A stretch of 64,000 bases of DNA from Oleispira sp. (lineage in GTDB: Bacteria > Pseudomonadota > Gammaproteobacteria > Pseudomonadales > Oceanobacteraceae). The stretch spans positions 1-64,000 of the forward strand of contig JAESQF010000085.1 in assembly GCA_016765295.1 (NCBI GenBank), written 5' to 3'. Below the pieces are notes generated by a model, which was not told the DNA's origin, searched no databases, and saw only the letters and a program-made list of their open reading frames with translations. Shown here one piece after another: positions 11,233-48,224 of this stretch. The position numbers and the translations under genes are program-made. Position 1 is the stretch's first letter, and every line of letters starts with the position of its first letter.

Positions 11233-12324
11233 TTAAACGTTAAAACGGTAATGCATTACATCACCATCTTTGATCAAGTATTCTTTACCTTCTAAGCGCC
11301 ACTTACCTGCATCTTTAGCACCGGCTTCACCTTTGAATTCGATGAAGTCTTCATAGGCAATAACTTCTGCGCGGATAAAGCCTTTTTCGAAATCAGTGTG
11401 AATAACACCCGCGCCATTAGGGGCGGTTGCGCCTACTTTTACTGTCCAAGCGCGAACTTCTTTAACGCCAGCTGTAAAGTAAGTTTGCAAACCTAATAAC
11501 TCATAACCCGCACGAATTACACGGTCAAGGCCGGCTTCTGTCATGCCCATATCTTCTAGAAATTCATTTTTTTCGTCATCGTCTAGTTCAGAAATTTCTG
11601 CTTCAATCTGGTTGCATACAACCACAACAACAGAATTATCAGCGGCGGCGATTTCGTTAACCACATCAAGGTGAGGATTGTTTTCAAAACCATCTTCGCT
11701 AACGTTAGCAATGTACATAACAGGCTTTAACGTGATCAAATGGAACTGATCATAAAGTTCGTAATCACCTTCTTCTTTTAGCAAAGTTCGGGCTGGTAGG
11801 CCTTCACTTAGATGAGCTACTAATACTTCTAATAAATCTTTTTGCTCAACTGAATCTTTAGCGCCACCCTTAGCAACACGTGATACTCGGTATAACTGCT
11901 TTTCACAAGATTCAAGGTCCGCCAAGATGAGTTCGGTATTAATGATATCGACATCGTCAAGTGGAGAGATTTTATTAGCAACGTGAATTACGTTTTCATC
12001 TTCGAAGCAGCGTACAACGTGAGCGATTGCATCGGTTTCACGAATGTTGGCTAAAAATTTATTTCCTAGACCTTCACCCTTTGAAGCACCTGCTACAAGG
12101 CCAGCAATATCAACGAATTCCATCGTTGTTGCTAGTACTTTATCAGGCTTAACAATTTCAGCTAATGCATCAAGACGCGCATCGGGCATAGGCACCATAC
12201 CTGAGTTCGGCTCGATCGTGCAGAAAGGGAAGTTCTCTGCGCTGATACCCGCTTTGGTTAGTGCGTTAAAGAGAGTCGATTTACCTACGTTGGGTAGACC
12301 AACGATTCCGCATTTAAAACCCAT
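11233..12324 (-). CDS. ychF: Redox-regulated ATPase YchF
   Basis: [26 protein letters not shown]; canonical YchF. Confidence 0.98.
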
Positions 12325-12370
12325 CTTGATGTCCTATATTTTGTTAAATTCTTTATAAACGCTGTCAGCG

Positions 12371-12955
12371 TTACGCTTTAAAAGTATGAAGTCTGTTCAT
12401 TGCTTTGCCCCAATCGCCTTTAACGGCATCGGGTAATACACGACAGGCTTCATCAATTGTCGCGTCCATCTGTGTTTTCTCGTTGGCGCTGGGTCGACCT
12501 AGTACGTGCCCAGTCACTCGACTTTTATCCCCTGGATGGCCAATGCCAATACGCAGACGATGAAAGTTTTTATTATTACCTAAGCAGGCAATGATATCAC
12601 GTAAGCCATTTTGACCACCGTGACCGCCGCCATTTTTTAACTTTGCCACACCTGATGGTAAATCTAAATCATCATGGGCGACTAAAATCTCTTCGGCATT
12701 AATTTTATAGAAATTGGCTAGCGCCTGTACGGCTTTGCCACTGTCATTCATAAAGGTAGTTGGAAATAATATCCATACATCTTGGCCATCAATTCGGCCT
12801 TGGCCGCTGATACCATAAAATTTCTTATCGGCTTTTAAGGAAATATTATAAGCACGAGCAATCTCTGAGATAAACCAAGCACCAGCATTATGGCGAGTCG
12901 CTTCGTATTCAGAACCTGGATTGCCTAAACCGACTATGAGTTTAATCTTGCTCAT
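12371..12955 (-). CDS. pth: Peptidyl-tRNA hydrolase
   Basis: [50 protein letters not shown]. Confidence 0.98.
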
Positions 12956-13026
12956 CTTTATCTACGTCTATCTATTATTGTTTATTAATCGCTTAGTATT
13001 CTAAACGTTTATTAACGCTGTAATAC

Positions 13027-13055
13027 AAAAAAGGGCTCATAAATGAGCCCTTTTT
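13027..13055 (-). terminator. Rho-independent terminator candidate
   Basis: AAAAAAGGGCTCAtaaaTGAGCCCTTTTT after rplY. Confidence 0.8.
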
Positions 13056-13102
13056 CTGTTTTCTCTCACCTTCATCACTTGTTGAGAATGAGAGAAAGAA
13101 GA

Positions 13103-13744
13103 TTACTCAGCAGCAGCAGCTTCGCCTTCGCCTTCTTCTTCAGCTATACCTTTAGGGGTAAACAAAGAAACAACAGCGGTATCGTGATCAGGACCATGAG
13201 ACAACGCTAAAGACTGTACGCCTTTAGGGAACTTGATGTCTGACAAGTGGATGATAGTACCCACTACAGCTTCAGCAAGATCGATTTCGATGAACAGAGG
13301 AAGATCGCCAGCTGCACAAATAACATCAATGCTAGTCATCTGGTGGTTAGCCTTAGCGCCGCCAACCTTAATCGCAGGACAAATATCTTCATTAATGAAG
13401 TGAACTGGAAGGTGAGACTTAAGAATCGTTGACTTGCTTACGCGCAAGAAATCAACGTGCATAACGTGGTCACGAGCAGGGTGACGCTGCATATCTTTCA
13501 ATACAACCTGTTCAGTTTTCTCACCAATGTTCAAAGTGATGATACTGCTGTAATAAGCTTCGTTTTCTAAAGCTTTTTTCAGCTCGTTAGCTTTTAGCGT
13601 AATGTTGGCTGGCTTACGTGCGTTGCCACCAGACTTTCCGCCATAAATAATAGCTGGAACTAGATTTTCTAAACGACGTAGGCGGCGGCTCGCACCTTTT
13701 CCTACTACTTCGCGAAGTTCTACGTTCAATGTTAAATCAGACAT
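13103..13744 (-). CDS. rplY: 50S ribosomal protein L25/general stress protein Ctc
   Basis: L25/Ctc N-terminal domain (VVGKGASRRLRRLENLVPAIIYGG) plus TL5 C-terminal domain; next to pth and prs. Confidence 0.95.
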   Translation of the reverse strand: MSDLTLNVELREVVGKGASRRLRRLENLVPAIIYGGKSGGNARKPANITLKANELKKALENEAYYSSIITLNIGEKTEQVVLKDMQRHPARDHVMHVDFLRVSKSTILKSHLPVHFINEDICPAIKVGGAKANHQMTSIDVICAAGDLPLFIEIDLAEAVVGTIIHLSDIKFPKGVQSLALSHGPDHDTAVVSLFTPKGIAEEEGEGEAAAAE

Positions 13745-39252: not shown

Positions 39253-40311
39253 ATGCTTGTTCGCATAATGAAGTACCTAAGTATTGCTCTTTTTAGCATG
39301 AATTTTGTATGGGCAGTAGGGCCAGATGATTCCTTTATGGCAGAGCCAGGGCCTACGTTATATACGGGATTTGAACAGTTATTAGATGACGATAAAACAC
39401 TTGTATTAGAGGAACTACTTGATCTTAATGAAAATATAAAACGCATTGCACTTTATCATAATGGCGATCGCCTACATCGATTAATACCCAAGCAAGTACA
39501 TCAAATGATTGAAAATAAGCTTATGGGACGCCTTATTGAAAGTGGGCGCTTCGAAGTTATTCAATGCATAGAGTGTCGTACAACAAAAGTTGAAATGACT
39601 GCTAATGAATTAAAAATCAGTCAGGCGGCAGAAAATAATCAGCAATTAAGAGCCTTGTCTAAGCAAGTAAGGGCCGATGCATTTATGTTTTGGAATGCCT
39701 CTGTTCATGATAATAAATTCACTATTAATTTACGTTTAATTGATGGTGCCAATAATCAATTGGTTTGGTTGAAAGAATACAGTAAACGCACGACCAAAGA
39801 AGCTGAAGACATGGACTTCAGTACGGTTCGATATGAAGTAATTGTCGGTGCTTGGGGAGTAGGAGGCAGTCGAAAAAATACAGTGGGAGGTAGTGATGCT
39901 GAGCTCACAGGGGTTACCGCTTTTGGTTTTCGTCGTAGAGAGAGCATGTCTATTAATGAGCATATTGAATATACCCTAGGTTTGGAATATTTTAGAAATT
40001 ATTCCGATACAGACTTATTTAATTTAAGTGGTTATAACTTAGAGGGTCGTATTATTGCGGGTATTCCGTCACTGGAAGATATTATTAAGACCAATGTTTA
40101 TCTCGGCATAGGGCAATCCTTCTTTAATAATGCCAATAGTTTGATCTTCCGTTTTGGTTTTGAATTTCCATTTTTTACCGACGGGTTTATGAACTTTGGT
40201 GCAATTGTCATGCAGGAAAGTGATGTCAAGTGGAAAGTAAATTCAAGCTATGAAGAAGCTGGAACATTTGGTGGTACTAGTTATGACCTTACCTTAGGCG
40301 TGAGATTTTAG
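39253..40311 (+). CDS. Predicted outer-membrane protein: CsgG/FlgO-like N-terminal domain plus C-terminal beta-barrel
   Basis: Signal peptide; MIENKLMGRLIESGRFEVIQ...VRADAFMFWNASVHDNKFTINLRLIDGANNQLVW; C-terminal alternating aromatic strands ending ...DLTLGVRF; ATG at 39253 with upstream AAAGGA. Confidence 0.65.
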   Translation: MLVRIMKYLSIALFSMNFVWAVGPDDSFMAEPGPTLYTGFEQLLDDDKTLVLEELLDLNENIKRIALYHNGDRLHRLIPKQVHQMIENKLMGRLIESGRFEVIQCIECRTTKVEMTANELKISQAAENNQQLRALSKQVRADAFMFWNASVHDNKFTINLRLIDGANNQLVWLKEYSKRTTKEAEDMDFSTVRYEVIVGAWGVGGSRKNTVGGSDAELTGVTAFGFRRRESMSINEHIEYTLGLEYFRNYSDTDLFNLSGYNLEGRIIAGIPSLEDIIKTNVYLGIGQSFFNNANSLIFRFGFEFPFFTDGFMNFGAIVMQESDVKWKVNSSYEEAGTFGGTSYDLTLGVRF

Positions 40312-40313
40312 GG

Positions 40314-41018
40314 ATGATTATGAAAATAATATTAACGTGCATTAGCATGATTATTCTAAGCGCTTGCACGTTAGAGCGCAGTAACAGAACACTGACACAG
40401 TATGGTGATAGCCAGCCTGACTGGACAATCAGTACAAGTGAAGCAAGTGTCGAAATAACAGATAAACAATTAGCTCAACGAAATGAAATAGCCAAGCTAG
40501 CGAAAAAAAGCCATGGCTTAATGCATATACATAGATTTGGCCCTGGATTTGACGTGCTGATGACGCTCGATGCCGGAGATAGCGATGTTATATTTAGTAT
40601 GAAATTGCCCGGGGGTAATGCCGATAAATTCGTGGAAGATGTATCCACGCTGGAGATCGCAGAAAAAAATAAGCAATTATTAGAAAGTCTTGATGACGAC
40701 AAGGCTGAACTGCATAGCAAAGAACTGGTGCAGCGAAACGAGATGATCGAGCAAAAAAAATTACAACAGTATCAGGCATCCACTCAGCATATTTTCAGTG
40801 CGCAGTCATTGTTCTATAAGAAACAGTACTGGAAATCACTGGATGAAACCAATAAAGCATTAGAGCTAGTCCCCACTTCGGCTCAGGCTTATGCTTTAAA
40901 AGGCAGTATTTATTATAAAATGGGGCTGAATGACGAAGCTAAAGTGAGCTGGCAGCAGGCGCTTGAAATCGATCCTAGTATGGATCAAGTAAAAACTAGC
41001 TTGGCACGGTTGAAATAG
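40314..41018 (+). CDS. Lipoprotein with C-terminal TPR
   Basis: Lipobox ILSAC; FYKKQYWKSLDETNKALELVPTSAQAYALKGSIYYKMGLNDEAKVSWQQALEIDP. Confidence 0.75.
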   Translation: MIMKIILTCISMIILSACTLERSNRTLTQYGDSQPDWTISTSEASVEITDKQLAQRNEIAKLAKKSHGLMHIHRFGPGFDVLMTLDAGDSDVIFSMKLPGGNADKFVEDVSTLEIAEKNKQLLESLDDDKAELHSKELVQRNEMIEQKKLQQYQASTQHIFSAQSLFYKKQYWKSLDETNKALELVPTSAQAYALKGSIYYKMGLNDEAKVSWQQALEIDPSMDQVKTSLARLK

Positions 41019-41027
41019 GAAAGATCA

Positions 41028-42968
41028 ATGAATACTAATAAAGCATCCTATACAAAATATATATTCATATTATTTATTGTTTTTTCATTTAATTCTGCAT
41101 TTACAGAAGAGCAAGGTAAGACATTTGAAGTGCCGGCTAAAAAGGACGAAATCGAAGAGGCGCGTTTTAAAAATGAGCTGGAAGCAAGACTGAATAGAGA
41201 TCTACAAGCCTATCTAGGTAATAATCGTTTTATTATTCATGTAGAAGCCGAGCTAAGGAAAACTCGGACGATTGTAAAAGAAACCGTAGTTTCTTCTCCA
41301 GTGAATATACCTGAAAGACCCGTATTTACCTCGCGTCCACTACCTGCTAAACCGCTGGTGAATAGAGGTCATGAAGTAGAAGAAAGTTTGCCAGGGTTGC
41401 CTACCAGTGATTTGCCTATATTTGAAGATAATAGTGATGAAGTAAACGCCTTAAAAGGTCGTGTTCAAGAATTAGTAAATGAGCGGCAACAAGCGTTAAG
41501 TTATGCGGAGAAATTACGCAAAGAAGCGGAAAAACAGATTAAAAAAATCAGAGAAAAAACTTTGGGTTATCGAAACTCAATAAAAAAATTAACGATAACA
41601 GTGGTGCTAGATAAAAACATTAAAGATCAGCAGGTTGAGTTTATACGCAGCCTTATTACCCGGAAGGCTCGATTAGATGAGCTGCGAGGGGATACGTTAA
41701 AAATAGTCAGAACAGAATTTAAAGGCTTAGCAGAAAGACCAGTTGTAGTAGATTGGTGGCAGCAATATCAAGGCTGGATTATGCTGCTATGTTTTGGCCT
41801 GATGATGTTGCTGCTGTTATTTGCGTTATATTTATTTAATAAGCGGTTAACAGAAAGTTTACGCGAGAATCAGCGTCGCAGTGAAAACTTTGATAATCTT
41901 ACCGTTCCCGCTGCAGTTGAAATGGCCCCATTAAAGAGTAGTGGCCGTGACGATAACGAACGCCGTCGCCAATTGAATGAAATGCGCCAAGAGCTAGTAA
42001 CGATTGGCCTTGGCCAGCCTAAATTATTTCAGCAGCGTATTGCTGAACAATTAACTAACGGCAATAGTCAGAATATCGTTGCCCTCTATGATGTGATGGG
42101 GAAAAGTCTATTTCGCAGCTTGTGCCCCAAAATTTCCAGTGAAGATTTAGACAGTTTAGTTGATCAGGCAGAGAGCCAGCCACTCGATAGTGAACAGAAG
42201 TTTTCTAGTTTGAATAACTTGCGTCAAGAGTTATTAAGGGCGCTAGGGGATGATGATAATGGCAATGAACCTTTTGCTTTTTTAGAAAAACTTAATGATT
42301 CACAAGTGTTATACCTGATAAAAGAAGAAGATACACGAATCAAGGCCTTACTATTGTCTCAGATGCTGTCAAAAAGAGCGGCGAGCATTATTCAACGTTT
42401 AGAAGGCCGTGAGCAATCAGCAGTCGCTTATGAACTTGGTGAATTTGAAACATTACCGGTATCAACCTTTAAAGATGTTGCCGATCGCTTAGCGAAAAAA
42501 TCGCTTAATGTCCCTAGTTTTGAAAATGTATCGGCTAATGGTCTAACCGTTTTGATTAATATGCTAGATACCATGAGCAGCGGTGAAGAAACTCGTTTAT
42601 TAAAAACGTTGAAAGCCGATAAACCCGAAACCTATTATCGTTTACGACAAGTTTATTATACATTTTCTGATCTTATGCGCACACCTGAAAGGGTGATCGC
42701 CAATGAATTGCGCGATATCGACCGATTGACAATGGCGCTTTCACTTTGTGGCGCACCGATAGAATTTAAACGCCATATTCTTGTAGGCTTGCCTACTAAA
42801 CTACGTTCATCGGTTATTTCAGAACTTAAAATCCAAGAAGGCCAGGCAGGGAAGGAGCAGATTGAACAAGCTCGAACCACAGTGGTTAGTAGTATGCGTG
42901 AAGTGTTAAAATCGGGTCGTTTTTCTATGGACGAATTAGTTGATACTAGTGCTAGTAGTGCAAATTAA
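41028..42968 (+). CDS. FliF-like periplasmic/TM segment fused to FliG-like rotor domains
   Basis: N-terminal TM/signal; RLNRDLQAYLGNNRFIIHVEAELRKTRT and IKKLTITVVLDKN...RGDTLKIVRTEF (FliF C-terminal style) then TM WIMLLCFGLMMLLLLFALYLF then FliG-like LRQVYYTFSDLMRTPERVIANELRDIDRLTMALSLCGAPIEFKRHILVGLPTKLRSSVISEL. Confidence 0.8.
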   Translation: MNTNKASYTKYIFILFIVFSFNSAFTEEQGKTFEVPAKKDEIEEARFKNELEARLNRDLQAYLGNNRFIIHVEAELRKTRTIVKETVVSSPVNIPERPVFTSRPLPAKPLVNRGHEVEESLPGLPTSDLPIFEDNSDEVNALKGRVQELVNERQQALSYAEKLRKEAEKQIKKIREKTLGYRNSIKKLTITVVLDKNIKDQQVEFIRSLITRKARLDELRGDTLKIVRTEFKGLAERPVVVDWWQQYQGWIMLLCFGLMMLLLLFALYLFNKRLTESLRENQRRSENFDNLTVPAAVEMAPLKSSGRDDNERRRQLNEMRQELVTIGLGQPKLFQQRIAEQLTNGNSQNIVALYDVMGKSLFRSLCPKISSEDLDSLVDQAESQPLDSEQKFSSLNNLRQELLRALGDDDNGNEPFAFLEKLNDSQVLYLIKEEDTRIKALLLSQMLSKRAASIIQRLEGREQSAVAYELGEFETLPVSTFKDVADRLAKKSLNVPSFENVSANGLTVLINMLDTMSSGEETRLLKTLKADKPETYYRLRQVYYTFSDLMRTPERVIANELRDIDRLTMALSLCGAPIEFKRHILVGLPTKLRSSVISELKIQEGQAGKEQIEQARTTVVSSMREVLKSGRFSMDELVDTSASSAN

Positions 42969-42976
42969 GGAGTGTT

Positions 42977-43780
42977 ATGAATCGTTTTTCTTTTAGTACC
43001 TTAGTCGGTATCAGCGCTGCGGTTAGCTTATTTATTTATGCCATCGTTTCCAGTACAGAAAATTATCTGATGTTTATCAGCGTATCAAGTTTTGCTTTGG
43101 TAGCGGGTAGCACGTTTGCTGCTTCATTAATTAGCTATACCACTCGGGATGTACTGATTGCGATGAAAGCATTAGCAGAAACCTTTTTTCATTCCCCGAC
43201 AAGTCCAAAATACTTACGAGCTCATGTTGAGCGTTTTGTAGAATGGAGCCAGATTTATCGCAGCGGCGGTATCTCTGCTTTAGAAATGTCACTGACCGAA
43301 AAAGAAAAAAAAGATCCCTTTCTTACTCACGGTATGGAGTTGTTAAGCAGCGGTCATAAAAATCACGATATAAGAACCATATTAACCGATGATATGGATG
43401 CTTTCTGGCAACGTATGACGGTGGAATCAAAAGTCTTAAATACCATGGCCGTCTATGCACCGGGCTTTGGCATGGTGGGTACCATTATTGGCTTAGTCAT
43501 TATGCTGGATAATATGAATGGTGATATGGCAGCATTAGGTAAAGGCCTATCTTTAGCACTGATTACTACCTTGTATGGAGTGGTATTAGCCAACCTCATT
43601 TTTAAACCTGCGGCCAATCAAGTAACAGAGAAACAAGAAGCGTTGTATTTTCGTGATCAAATATTGGTTGAGGGTTTTGTACTATTAGCTGAAAAGCGTG
43701 ATGCATTTTTTATCCAAGATCGACTCAATGCTTATCTTAATCCGAGCATGCGTCTGCAACCTGCAGAAGATAGCTTGTAA
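42977..43780 (+). CDS. MotA/PomA-like stator subunit
   Basis: SGGISALE...FLTHGMELLSSGHK, MAVYAPGFGMVGTIIGLVIMLDNM, ALGKGLSLALITTLYGVVLANLIFKPAAN. Confidence 0.92.
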   Translation: MNRFSFSTLVGISAAVSLFIYAIVSSTENYLMFISVSSFALVAGSTFAASLISYTTRDVLIAMKALAETFFHSPTSPKYLRAHVERFVEWSQIYRSGGISALEMSLTEKEKKDPFLTHGMELLSSGHKNHDIRTILTDDMDAFWQRMTVESKVLNTMAVYAPGFGMVGTIIGLVIMLDNMNGDMAALGKGLSLALITTLYGVVLANLIFKPAANQVTEKQEALYFRDQILVEGFVLLAEKRDAFFIQDRLNAYLNPSMRLQPAEDSL

Positions 43781-44460
43781 TGGAGGAATCCGTATCGAGT
43801 AAACACCGAGGTTTACGCCGTCGCCGTCCTAACTTTGATGACTCCTCGAGTTCATGGTTAATAACGTACTCTGATGCCATTACTTTATTACTCGCTTTTT
43901 TCGTTATGATTTTATCCGTATCAGATCTTAATCAAGGCAAGGTCGAAGCATTAAAAGAAGGCTTATCAGAAGCGATGACAGGAGAGGCACCACCAACCCC
44001 TTTTACGGATATTAAAGAGGGGCTGGAGCAGTTAATTGCGAAAAATGGTTTAGAGAACCAAGTATCCGTTACCTTAGATGCGAAGGGGGTGAAAATAGAA
44101 TTTGCCAATGTTGCTTTATATCAATCAGGTTCAGCAGATATCAAGCCAGAAGCTATTTCTACATTAAAAGAAGTGACTCGGGTTATACGAGAAACCAGTC
44201 ATAAGACTCACATGGTCGAAGTGGAGGGGCATACTGATGATGTTCCTATTCATACAGAAAAGTTTCCTTCCAATTGGGAGTTGTCATCAGTACGAGCAAC
44301 CAATGTTGTGAGATATTTATTAGCTCAAGGGATTGAAAAAGAGCGGCTAAAGGCTGTGGGTTATGCGGACAGTCGGCCAAAAGAAAATAGTAAAAACCTA
44401 CCCCTTAATCAACAGCGCCAAAATAATCGACGTATTGTTGTTTTTGTAAAACGATATTAG
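43780..44460 (+). CDS. MotB/PomB-like stator subunit with OmpA-type peptidoglycan-binding domain
   Basis: WLITYSDAITLLLAFFVMILSVSD (plug/TM with Asp), VEGHTDDVPI...NWELSSVRATNVVRYL. Confidence 0.93.
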   Translation: MEESVSSKHRGLRRRRPNFDDSSSSWLITYSDAITLLLAFFVMILSVSDLNQGKVEALKEGLSEAMTGEAPPTPFTDIKEGLEQLIAKNGLENQVSVTLDAKGVKIEFANVALYQSGSADIKPEAISTLKEVTRVIRETSHKTHMVEVEGHTDDVPIHTEKFPSNWELSSVRATNVVRYLLAQGIEKERLKAVGYADSRPKENSKNLPLNQQRQNNRRIVVFVKRY

Positions 44461-44605: not shown

Positions 44606-46507
44606 ATGGAACTCCTTCAAAAAAACGGTCTATATAAGGCCATGTTACTTGCGATGACAACCTCCATGTTAGTAGCATGTGGTTCTGATTCAGATGGCGA
44701 TGATGGTGGCGTGGGTGTTTCAGGCGCACAAGGATCTTCTGGTACTAGTGGTGATGATGGTATAAATGGTGCTGATGGTATAAATGGTGCTGATGGTATA
44801 AACGGCGAAGATGGTCAAAACGGTGCAGATGGTCAAAACGGCGCGCCTTCTAATGCGGGTTTAACGCGCCTAGCCCAAGCACCGATTGGCGCTGAATTTA
44901 CCGGTATGTATCTTAATGGTGATGGTACTTTTTTCATAAACGTTCAGCACCCTTCAACCGATAATACAAGCGAGAATTCACAGGGTCATACTTTCGATAA
45001 GGGGACGGTCGGTGTTGTAACGGGGGCCGATTTTAATAATTTGGGTAAAGTGGCTGCGCTGGATTTAGCCATCACGGATGCCGATAAAGAAGTTGTATCG
45101 ACAGCGGTAGGTAAGTACCAGGTTCTTTTACAGCAAAATGATGTACTGGAAGATGGCTTTACTGCAGGTGATATTGTTAAGAAAGACGGTACAACGTTAG
45201 TTAAAAATTCTAACGACCCAGATTTTAACGGTGTAGTACCTGATGGCAGCGGTGGCTATTACGTTTATACCAATTGGGAAGATCGCACGGGTGGTATGAG
45301 CCGTATTCAAATATCTGGTTTAGGCCCTGATGGCTACAGCCTGATTAAAAAAGAAGGCATGCTGGACTTCTCTTCCGTTGATGGCACATGGGTAAATTGT
45401 TTTGGTACGGTAACTCCATGGGGAACACCTATTTCAGCGGAAGAGTTGTATTACGATAATAGCGCTGACTGGTTTGATCCAACGTATAAGTACTTTGGTA
45501 ATGCCGTTGCCGTTGCGCAATACATGGGATACCCAGAAGACCAATCAGGTAATTGGGGAAATCCATATAACTATGGTTACAACGTAGAAGTAGGCACAGA
45601 TGGCACCGTTACTGAGGAGAATGTTGCTAATGTTGAAATAGAAAAACGTTTTGCCTTAGGTCGTTTCTCTCATGAAAATGCGGTAGTTATGCCCGATAAA
45701 CGCACAGTTTTCCAAAGTGATGATGGCAGCAATACTGTTTTCTTCAAATTTGTCGCAGATGTCGAGAGTGACTTGAGTGCGGGTACTTTGTACGCTGCTA
45801 AAGCGACTCAGGCGAGTAATACTTCGACCACTGCAGAAGCTGCATTTGGAATTGAATGGGTCATGTTAGGGGCAGGTAATGATGCTCAAATTGAAGCGTG
45901 GATTGATTCTTACGATGGTACTTTTGCAGAAGCAAAACATATCACCGATCAGCAGATCAACGATTGGGCAGAAGCTAAGCTTGGCAAAGATTTGGATGGC
46001 GTAAACGGTATCGCTGCTAGTCCATTCATGGATGATCGCCCAGCTTTTTTAGAAACACGAAAAGCCGCAAAAGCTTTGGGAGCCACTGCTGAATTTAATA
46101 AAATGGAAGGCGTAAACATTAATTATGACCTAGCTGAAACTTGGTGGAATGGTGGTGATGCTGATGGTGTGCAGGCCTATTCCTATATGGCGATGTCAAC
46201 GATCGGTGGTGGTATGACGGATGATGACGGCGCCATTCAAATTAATACGGCTCATGGTAGTTGTGGTGCTGTTTACCGTATGAAGCTAATTAAAAATGCT
46301 GCGGGTTTAGTTGATGTAAAAACGATGATTCCTGCAATCATTGGCGGTCCATACTTTGCTGATCGCGCGGTTAATGAGTGTGATGTTACCAATATATCAA
46401 ACCCAGATAACCTAGTTATCCTGAACGATGGTCGTGTATTAATTGGTGAAGATTCAGGCAACCATGAAAATAATATGGTGTGGGTATTTGATGATCCTGC
46501 GATCTGA
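44606..46507 (+). CDS. PhoX-like (DUF839) lipoprotein with collagen-like Gly-X-Y stretch
   Basis: Lipobox LVAC; GXY repeats; NCFGTVTPWGTPISAEE, GRFSHENAVVMPDKRTVFQSDDG, NPDNLVILNDGRVLIGED. Confidence 0.8.
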   Translation: MELLQKNGLYKAMLLAMTTSMLVACGSDSDGDDGGVGVSGAQGSSGTSGDDGINGADGINGADGINGEDGQNGADGQNGAPSNAGLTRLAQAPIGAEFTGMYLNGDGTFFINVQHPSTDNTSENSQGHTFDKGTVGVVTGADFNNLGKVAALDLAITDADKEVVSTAVGKYQVLLQQNDVLEDGFTAGDIVKKDGTTLVKNSNDPDFNGVVPDGSGGYYVYTNWEDRTGGMSRIQISGLGPDGYSLIKKEGMLDFSSVDGTWVNCFGTVTPWGTPISAEELYYDNSADWFDPTYKYFGNAVAVAQYMGYPEDQSGNWGNPYNYGYNVEVGTDGTVTEENVANVEIEKRFALGRFSHENAVVMPDKRTVFQSDDGSNTVFFKFVADVESDLSAGTLYAAKATQASNTSTTAEAAFGIEWVMLGAGNDAQIEAWIDSYDGTFAEAKHITDQQINDWAEAKLGKDLDGVNGIAASPFMDDRPAFLETRKAAKALGATAEFNKMEGVNINYDLAETWWNGGDADGVQAYSYMAMSTIGGGMTDDDGAIQINTAHGSCGAVYRMKLIKNAAGLVDVKTMIPAIIGGPYFADRAVNECDVTNISNPDNLVILNDGRVLIGEDSGNHENNMVWVFDDPAI

Positions 46508-46535
46508 TCATAAATCTTTAACAATTAAGCAGTAT

Positions 46536-46567
46536 AAAGGAGGGAGGCATTAGCCTCCCTTTTTTAT
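46536..46567 (+). terminator. Rho-independent terminator candidate
   Basis: AAAGGAGGGAGGCattaGCCTCCCTTTTTTATT. Confidence 0.85.
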
Positions 46568-46583
46568 TATCGAGATTATTTGA

Positions 46584-48224
46584 ATGAAAGAGCTTGTATG
46601 CATATTGGTTCTGGCTGTCTTTATGGTTGGTTGTTCCGATACAGAAAGCGCTGAAAGTATTACATCTGATTACGAGTACTTATTTCCTTTAGAGGTGAAT
46701 AAGACTTCGAATAAAGAGGCTGTGATTCCTCCTCAGTGTTATACCAAGCATGAAGGTAAGTATAATCCCTGCATGGTATGCCATCAAAGCTATACCTTCG
46801 GTTCTCGTCCTAATGCCATGTCTGATGGCAACCTGCAAACAGCTTATGACTTTTCTGATTATGGTTTCAAGAATCATTGGCAAAATTTATTCGAAGATAG
46901 AACAAGTAGAATTAAAAAAATTAGTGATTTAAAAGTTAATAAATATATTTCAGAAGATAATTACACTCCCCTGATTGAAGATTTAAAAGCATCTGCCTGG
47001 GATGGAGTTATTCCTGAAATTGAGAATCTTCAAAAGGGTGCGCTAGCATTTGATGAATATGGATTCGCCATTGATGGCAGTCAGTGGGTCGCATTTAATT
47101 ACAAACCAATGCCTAGTACTTTCTGGCCGACTAATGGTTCAACAGATGATGTGATGATTAGATTGCCGATTGAATTTCGTATCAGTAGCTGCATAAATAT
47201 GTCAGAAAATAAGGATGTTTATATTGCGAATCTTGGTTTGTTAGAATTAGCAATTCAAGGGAAAGATGCTGTATCGATTCCTAATGTTGATGAAAGAAAT
47301 ATTTGTGATGATATTAATGGCGATGGTGAAATTACGAATAATGTTAGTCGCATCATTAAGCGGAAAAGTTATTTTGGTAATGCTGGCAATGTTGTAGTGC
47401 GAGATATGCTTTATCCACAAGGGACAGAGTTTTTACATTCAGTTCGATATGTTGGGGTGGATTCATACGGTGCCATTTACATTCCAGAGAGAATGAAAGA
47501 GCTGCGCTATATGGTCAAAACGAATGATTTTGATCAGTTATCGTTAAGCTCAATGTATGGTAACGAACAGCAAGAAAAAATTGATGGAAACCTTCCAACT
47601 TACAATTATAAAAAAACAGGTTCAGCCAATGAGTTTGGTTGGAAGCTGCTGGGTTTCATTGAAGATCATCAGGGGAGGTTACGTTTACAGAATCGAGAGG
47701 AGACAATGTTCTGTATGGGATGTCACAAAACGATTGGTACAACAATTGATCAAACATTTTCATTTCCAAGAAAAGTCTCTGGGGTCAATGGCTGGGGCTA
47801 TATTAATTTGAAGGGAATGATTGATGCACCTAATATTATCGGATCTACAGGCGGTGAAATTTTGAACTATCTCAAGGCAGTCGGGGGAGGTGATGAGTTT
47901 AGGCAGAATGATGAAATGATATCGCGCTGGTTCTCTACCGATGGAGAGGTTTTGGAAGATAAGGTCAATATGGCCGATGTGTATGAGTTGATTACTCCAA
48001 GCCCTGAAAGAGCATTGAAATTGAATAAGGCCTATTGGACGATCGTGTTAGATCAAGATTTCAATCACGGTCGTGATGCGAATATAACACCTGCTCGCAA
48101 TGTCTATAAAAGTATCGATGAGAATAGCCCAATATTAGCCGATAAACTTAGTAGGAAATATGATATCCGCTTACGCTGGGAAGAAGACGAGAAGGTTTTA
48201 ACCGATGACAGTGCTGGGCTATAG
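46584..48224 (+). CDS. Lipoprotein with two c-type heme motifs (CMVCH, CMGCH)
   Basis: Lipobox MVGC; two CxxCH motifs. Confidence 0.75.
   Translation: MKELVCILVLAVFMVGCSDTESAESITSDYEYLFPLEVNKTSNKEAVIPPQCYTKHEGKYNPCMVCHQSYTFGSRPNAMSDGNLQTAYDFSDYGFKNHWQNLFEDRTSRIKKISDLKVNKYISEDNYTPLIEDLKASAWDGVIPEIENLQKGALAFDEYGFAIDGSQWVAFNYKPMPSTFWPTNGSTDDVMIRLPIEFRISSCINMSENKDVYIANLGLLELAIQGKDAVSIPNVDERNICDDINGDGEITNNVSRIIKRKSYFGNAGNVVVRDMLYPQGTEFLHSVRYVGVDSYGAIYIPERMKELRYMVKTNDFDQLSLSSMYGNEQQEKIDGNLPTYNYKKTGSANEFGWKLLGFIEDHQGRLRLQNREETMFCMGCHKTIGTTIDQTFSFPRKVSGVNGWGYINLKGMIDAPNIIGSTGGEILNYLKAVGGGDEFRQNDEMISRWFSTDGEVLEDKVNMADVYELITPSPERALKLNKAYWTIVLDQDFNHGRDANITPARNVYKSIDENSPILADKLSRKYDIRLRWEEDEKVLTDDSAGL

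Follow-up and report, generated by a model that had tools for sequence, protein, structure and literature searches.

The 64,000-nucleotide stretch analyzed here (the window) carries two genes, ORF1 and ORF2, directly ahead of genes for a rotor and a stator of flagellar type, and the question is what these two proteins contribute to a motor. We conclude that they are probably the outer-membrane-side parts of a dedicated five-gene rotary motor that is related to the flagellum but non-flagellar. The features of the two genes are as follows.

39253-40311, forward strand: ORF1, predicted secreted protein with a FlgO/LpoB-like domain and an eight-stranded outer-membrane barrel (ORF call, AlphaFold2, Foldseek, orthologues)
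39358-39795, forward strand: ORF1 residues 36-181, alpha/beta domain of FlgO/LpoB/CsgG type (AlphaFold2, Foldseek, Pfam, orthologues)
39565-39576, forward strand: near-invariant CxEC of ORF1, inside that domain (orthologue comparison)
39826-40308, forward strand: ORF1 residues 192-352, predicted eight-stranded beta-barrel, ending YDLTLGVRF (AlphaFold2, Foldseek, strand alternation)
40314-41018, forward strand: ORF2, lipoprotein with a lipobox, a conserved beta motif and C-terminal TPRs (ORF call, Pfam, alignment)
40509-40610, forward strand: ORF2 residues 66-99, conserved motif HGLMHIHRxGPGxDVLMTLDAGDSDVxFxMxLP (alignment)
40815-41015, forward strand: TPR region of ORF2 (Pfam)

ORF1 begins with the ATG at 39253, which has AAGGA a few bases 5' of it, and its stop is at 40311. 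The AlphaFold2 model, built on an alignment of 24 sequences, has a mean pLDDT of 77.7 and a pTM of 0.51. It contains a helix/strand domain at about residues 36-180 and eight long strands at about residues 192-351, most of the latter with pLDDT >90. Both parts proposed for this protein in a preliminary description, a domain of CsgG-like type and a barrel, are therefore present in the predicted structure. In Foldseek comparisons of the barrel to the PDB, eight-stranded outer-membrane barrels ranked first (NspA, OmpA, OmpX, OmpW and Ail), with E values of about 1e-5 to 1e-4 (1.6e-5 for NspA) and prob 1.0. The rmsd of these alignments is high (7-9 A), so that a fold class is claimed here but not a geometry; closure of the predicted barrel and the arrangement of the two domains are uncertain. 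The alternation of hydrophobic and polar residues in the predicted strands exceeds that of shuffled sequences (z 2.9; 72 of 20,000 shuffles reach the value), and most gammaproteobacterial members of the ORF1 family end in LGxRF. With its amphipathic strands and C-terminal aromatic signal, this half of ORF1 is predicted to be an eight-stranded barrel like those of OmpA, OmpX and OmpW, in keeping with the outer-membrane signature first noticed at its C-terminus.

The first domain of ORF1 gave Foldseek matches to LpoB (5.2e-5) and FlgT (1.8e-4), and also to TolB, GNA1162 and PelBC. ORF1 of the window is below threshold in Pfam for FlgT_M (0.006), FlgO (0.015) and LpoB (0.09); its FlgO (PF17680) score is 15.6 bits, against a cut-off of 22.6 bits. 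The FlgO profile matches 8 of 9 ORF1 orthologues, and one from a second phylum (L144) lies over the cut-off (E 2.4e-7, 31.1 bits). The CsgG profile (PF03783), by comparison, matches just 1 of the 9, with a best E of 0.065, which is too weak to assign ORF1 to that family. Sequence searches of ORF1 gave no useful match in the PDB and none in NCBIfam. Thus, of the CsgG/FlgO resemblance originally suggested, the likeness to FlgO, LpoB and FlgT stands, while a close relation to CsgG proper does not. By these tests ORF1 is neither a canonical FlgO nor a CsgG. The FlgO family is described as lipoproteins with no further domain, encoded among flagellar genes, whereas ORF1 has a predicted barrel and belongs to a five-gene unit; no lipobox was seen in it. 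A canonical FlgO was sought in relatives as the source of ORF1, and none scored over the Pfam cut-off. The fusion of a FlgO-type domain to a barrel, taken as a whole, matched no solved protein in the PDB sequence search or in Foldseek. The CxEC of the first domain is near-invariant in both phyla; L144 has AxEA in its place and L145 is also without it, the two cysteines having been lost together.

For ORF2, the lipobox and terminal TPR of the preliminary description were both confirmed. The lipobox reads LSAC, with Cys18 invariant in a 23-row alignment (A5), and the TPR_1 match in Pfam has an E value of 3.5e-10. The lipobox is a gammaproteobacterial feature; orthologues from the second phylum, for example L144 and L140, have by eye an ordinary signal-type N terminus. 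An ORF1 orthologue in genome G414 (L062, 9059-10485) is accompanied by an ORF2 of 104 aa that keeps only the lipobox/N terminus and the conserved motif. This genome is without the rotor fusion, and a canonical FliG is the sole FliG found in it, a case that counts against the assignment of ORF1 and ORF2 to the motor.

In the window, ORF2 is followed by the rotor fusion and by MotA and MotB after gaps of 9, 8 and -1 bases. A scan for terminators and promoters gave nothing decisive. The features of these three genes are as follows.

41028-42968, forward strand: rotor protein, a FliF(RBM3/collar)-FliG fusion (sequence profiles, structure matches)
41121-41714, forward strand: RBM3-like region of the fusion
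about 41754-41837, forward strand: TM segment of the fusion
41940-42242, forward strand: FliG_N-like region of the fusion
42300-42512, forward strand: FliG_M of the fusion
42606-42926, forward strand: FliG_C of the fusion
42977-43780, forward strand: MotA/PomA-type stator subunit (Pfam, alignment)
43780-44460, forward strand: MotB-type stator subunit (Pfam, NCBIfam, alignment)

Sequence profiles identify the M and C domains of FliG in the fusion, together with the RBM3/collar/second TM region of FliF; RBM1 and RBM2 of FliF were not detected in it. Structure searches match the same proteins, FliG at 3.7e-11 and the FliF RBM3/collar ring at 8e-4 to 3e-3, and FliG_C superposes with a TM-score of 0.88 over 89 columns. 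With FliG_M, FliG_C and FliF RBM3, the fusion is a rotor of flagellar type. The FliM-binding EHPQR is lost, and most members have E-D/E-x-R/K. This loss agrees with the lack of FliM/N genes in the five-gene unit, which in both respects differs from a flagellar C-ring. At L007/L031 (G133) a single in-frame TAG lies within the rotor fusion, the unit being intact otherwise; it could be an error or real.

The stator genes are conserved at the positions that matter in the flagellum. The torque-site Arg of MotA (equivalent to E. coli R90) is invariant in 15 aligned units, as are the channel Asp and the SNWELS peptidoglycan-binding motif of MotB; the MotA Glu equivalent to E98 is kept in most of the 15, the exceptions being L052, L053 and L061. 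The pair thus has the torque Arg/Glu, channel Asp and peptidoglycan-binding domain of MotAB/PomAB stators. In the flagellar motor FliG Asp289 pairs with MotA Arg90 (PMC7564593). The position of FliG_C Arg281, read from alignments, is Lys or Arg in the fusion.

A profile-derived scan with the fusion across 84,980 species genomes found 20 loci. Nineteen of these, all gammaproteobacterial contigs of other genomes, carry all five genes on one strand as ORF1-ORF2-fusion-MotA-MotB, most of them only a few bases apart; the other (L055), from Ca. Tanganyikabacteria, has fusion-ORF2-ORF1. A named strain with the complete unit is Thalassolituus maritimus DSM 24913 (L043). The genes are rare: the fusion occurs in 9 of 295 genomes of the order, and the ORF1 profile in 4 of 369 genomes of the class, the window's own included. 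The class-wide search placed ORF1 in three more families, represented by G313 (L054), G345 (L061), where the order is MotA-MotB-ORF1-ORF2-fusion, and G414 (L062), which has ORF1 and the front of ORF2 only. ORF1 was found in five further genomes of the phylum of L055: in two the unit is complete and arranged fusion-ORF2-ORF1-MotA-MotB (L144, L145), two have fusion-ORF2-ORF1 (L142, L143), and one has ORF2-ORF1-MotA on a 3.9 kb contig (L141).

The genes of the unit are linked in L061 and in L144/L145 despite their other orders, and thus the linkage outlasts both rearrangement and distance. Its retention across two phyla upholds the earlier proposal that ORF1 and ORF2 go with the FliF-FliG/MotA/MotB motor. 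Synteny left by recent common descent was rejected as the cause, since distant carriers have different neighbouring genes and arrange the unit differently. Contamination is an unlikely source of the Tanganyikabacteria copy, since four further genomes of that phylum have ORF1, ORF2 and the fusion on one contig, a fifth has ORF2-ORF1-MotA, and the GC of the copy is like that of other loci in its genome.

The genome of the window also encodes canonical FliG, FlhA, FliM/N and flagellin, and most carriers of the unit likewise have canonical FliG and flagellar genes; a flagellum accompanies the unit in nearly all of them. This co-occurrence, and the FlgO/FlgT-like first domain of ORF1, would suit an accessory to the ordinary flagellum, in which ORF1 and ORF2 would form an H-ring-like part, with the fusion and MotAB as additions to the flagellar motor. 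We regard such a role as unlikely: the unit has its own stator and its own rotor, the latter without the FliM-binding motif, its contig is not the one that carries the flagellar cluster, and it occurs in G313 without flagellar markers. No canonical FliG, FlhA, FliM/N or flagellin was found in this genome, which is 93% complete and carries the whole unit; as a single fragmented draft, and the only good-quality carrier without a flagellum, it lends thin support to the independence of the unit. G1011, the genome of L053, has matches to FlhA, FliM/N and flagellin and none to canonical FliG, which may reflect draft incompleteness.

No adhesin, load, filament, rod, hook or export-gate gene is conserved in the unit, and with no rod, hook or filament gene any output would be at the periplasm or the outer membrane. 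A motor coupled to an outer-membrane protein could there act on a moving load, the rotor dragging the barrels or their outside ligands along or around the outer membrane in surface motility or envelope remodelling. To our knowledge the Agl-Glt machinery of Myxococcus has no FliG/FliF rotor, and only the MotAB superfamily is common to it and the unit. Compared by architecture, it likewise combines a motor of MotA/B type with TPR proteins and with an outer-membrane protein that has the OmpA fold (PMC3169522). A moving load is nevertheless possible rather than probable, as the unit includes neither an adhesin nor any other conserved partner at the surface. Domains of FlgO/LpoB type are more familiar from static rings of the outer membrane or from regulators. 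Far less plausible is a device for export or permeation, like CsgG or PelC, which would merely share an operon with the motor or be energised by it. PelBC is among the structural matches of ORF1, and secretion complexes contain CsgG and PelC domains; however, the conserved neighbours include no gene for a substrate, curli or polysaccharide, and we know of no case in which a barrel of eight strands is wide enough for protein export. The predicted fold of the ORF1 N-domain is that of CsgG, PelC and LpoB. The solved members matched here have no fused eight-stranded barrel, and the CsgG barrel is built from many subunits. The defence system Zorya was also considered. ZorB matches at E 1e-20 and ZorAB is likewise a MotA/MotB-type pair, but the MotA of the unit is short and flagellar-like, and ZorA matches weakly. 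Zorya was rejected, there being no long-tailed ZorA and no ZorC, ZorD or ZorE among the five proteins; PHROGs and PADLOC returned no phage or defence assignment.

The unit is thus like a flagellar motor with an H-ring-type element, yet it is not a flagellum. It has in common with the flagellar motor FliF RBM3/collar, FliG M and C, the torque Arg, the channel Asp and the peptidoglycan-binding motif; it differs in that FliF and FliG are fused, without detectable RBM1/RBM2 and without EHPQR, and in having no genes for FliM/N, export gate, rod, hook or filament. The Vibrio H-ring (FlgO, FlgP, FlgT) similarly places a FlgO/FlgT-type domain at the outer-membrane side of a PomA/MotA-type motor, for anchoring. 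FlgO belongs to this ring as an outer-membrane lipoprotein; the ring serves as the anchor of the motor, and assembly of the stator ring depends on it (PMC7990780). Vibrio FlgO has no barrel, whereas the ORF1 domain is fused to a predicted one, and the five-gene unit encodes its own rotor and stator and has no L/P-ring, rod or hook gene.

From these features we infer a machine, including its place at the outer membrane, its assembly, its rotation and its output. MotB would tether the MotA-MotB stators to peptidoglycan, and these, powered by ion flow, would rotate an inner-membrane ring made of the FliF(RBM3)-FliG fusion. The eight-stranded barrel of ORF1 would hold this protein in the outer membrane, with the FlgO/LpoB-like domain in the periplasm. 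ORF2, lipid-anchored in gammaproteobacteria, would use its conserved motif and TPRs to bridge ORF1 and the rotor or stator. In specific terms, the two proteins most likely act at the outer membrane as an anchor or bushing, comparable to the H-ring, that holds the machine in position; torque coupled to a moving outer-membrane load would be the second choice.

On balance we lean towards a new envelope-spanning rotary machine, present in Gammaproteobacteria and in the phylum of the Tanganyikabacteria. Its flagellar-type MotAB/FliG motor, with neither a filament nor a secretion apparatus, would drive an outer-membrane complex made up of the TPR protein and the fusion of FlgO domain and beta-barrel, or would be held by that complex. 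No description of the unit was found in the literature searched, which covered few subscription papers and preprints, so that an earlier description elsewhere is possible. If the reading is correct, a flagellar torque generator works without an export gate, rod or filament, which bears on the modular assembly of the flagellar motor. The small and complete gene set of Thalassolituus maritimus DSM 24913 makes the purpose of the motor testable.

Several neighbouring or related genes were also observed. In L061, a protein with Sel1 repeats and a SPOR domain is encoded directly upstream of MotA (11975-13546). A different and smaller FliF(RBM3)-FliG fusion, of 564 aa, is found in another family of the order (L149, 7818-9512; G193:C1, about 2261817-2263511), in an 18 kb stretch without matches to MotAB, ORF1 or ORF2. 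It keeps EHPQ, in contrast to the fusion of the window, and is followed by FliM-like, FliN-like and FlhG-like genes. In the window, the unit is closely followed (44606-48224) by genes for a PhoX-like protein with collagen-like repeats and then a CxxCH lipoprotein, a pair that adjoins the unit in some relatives only.
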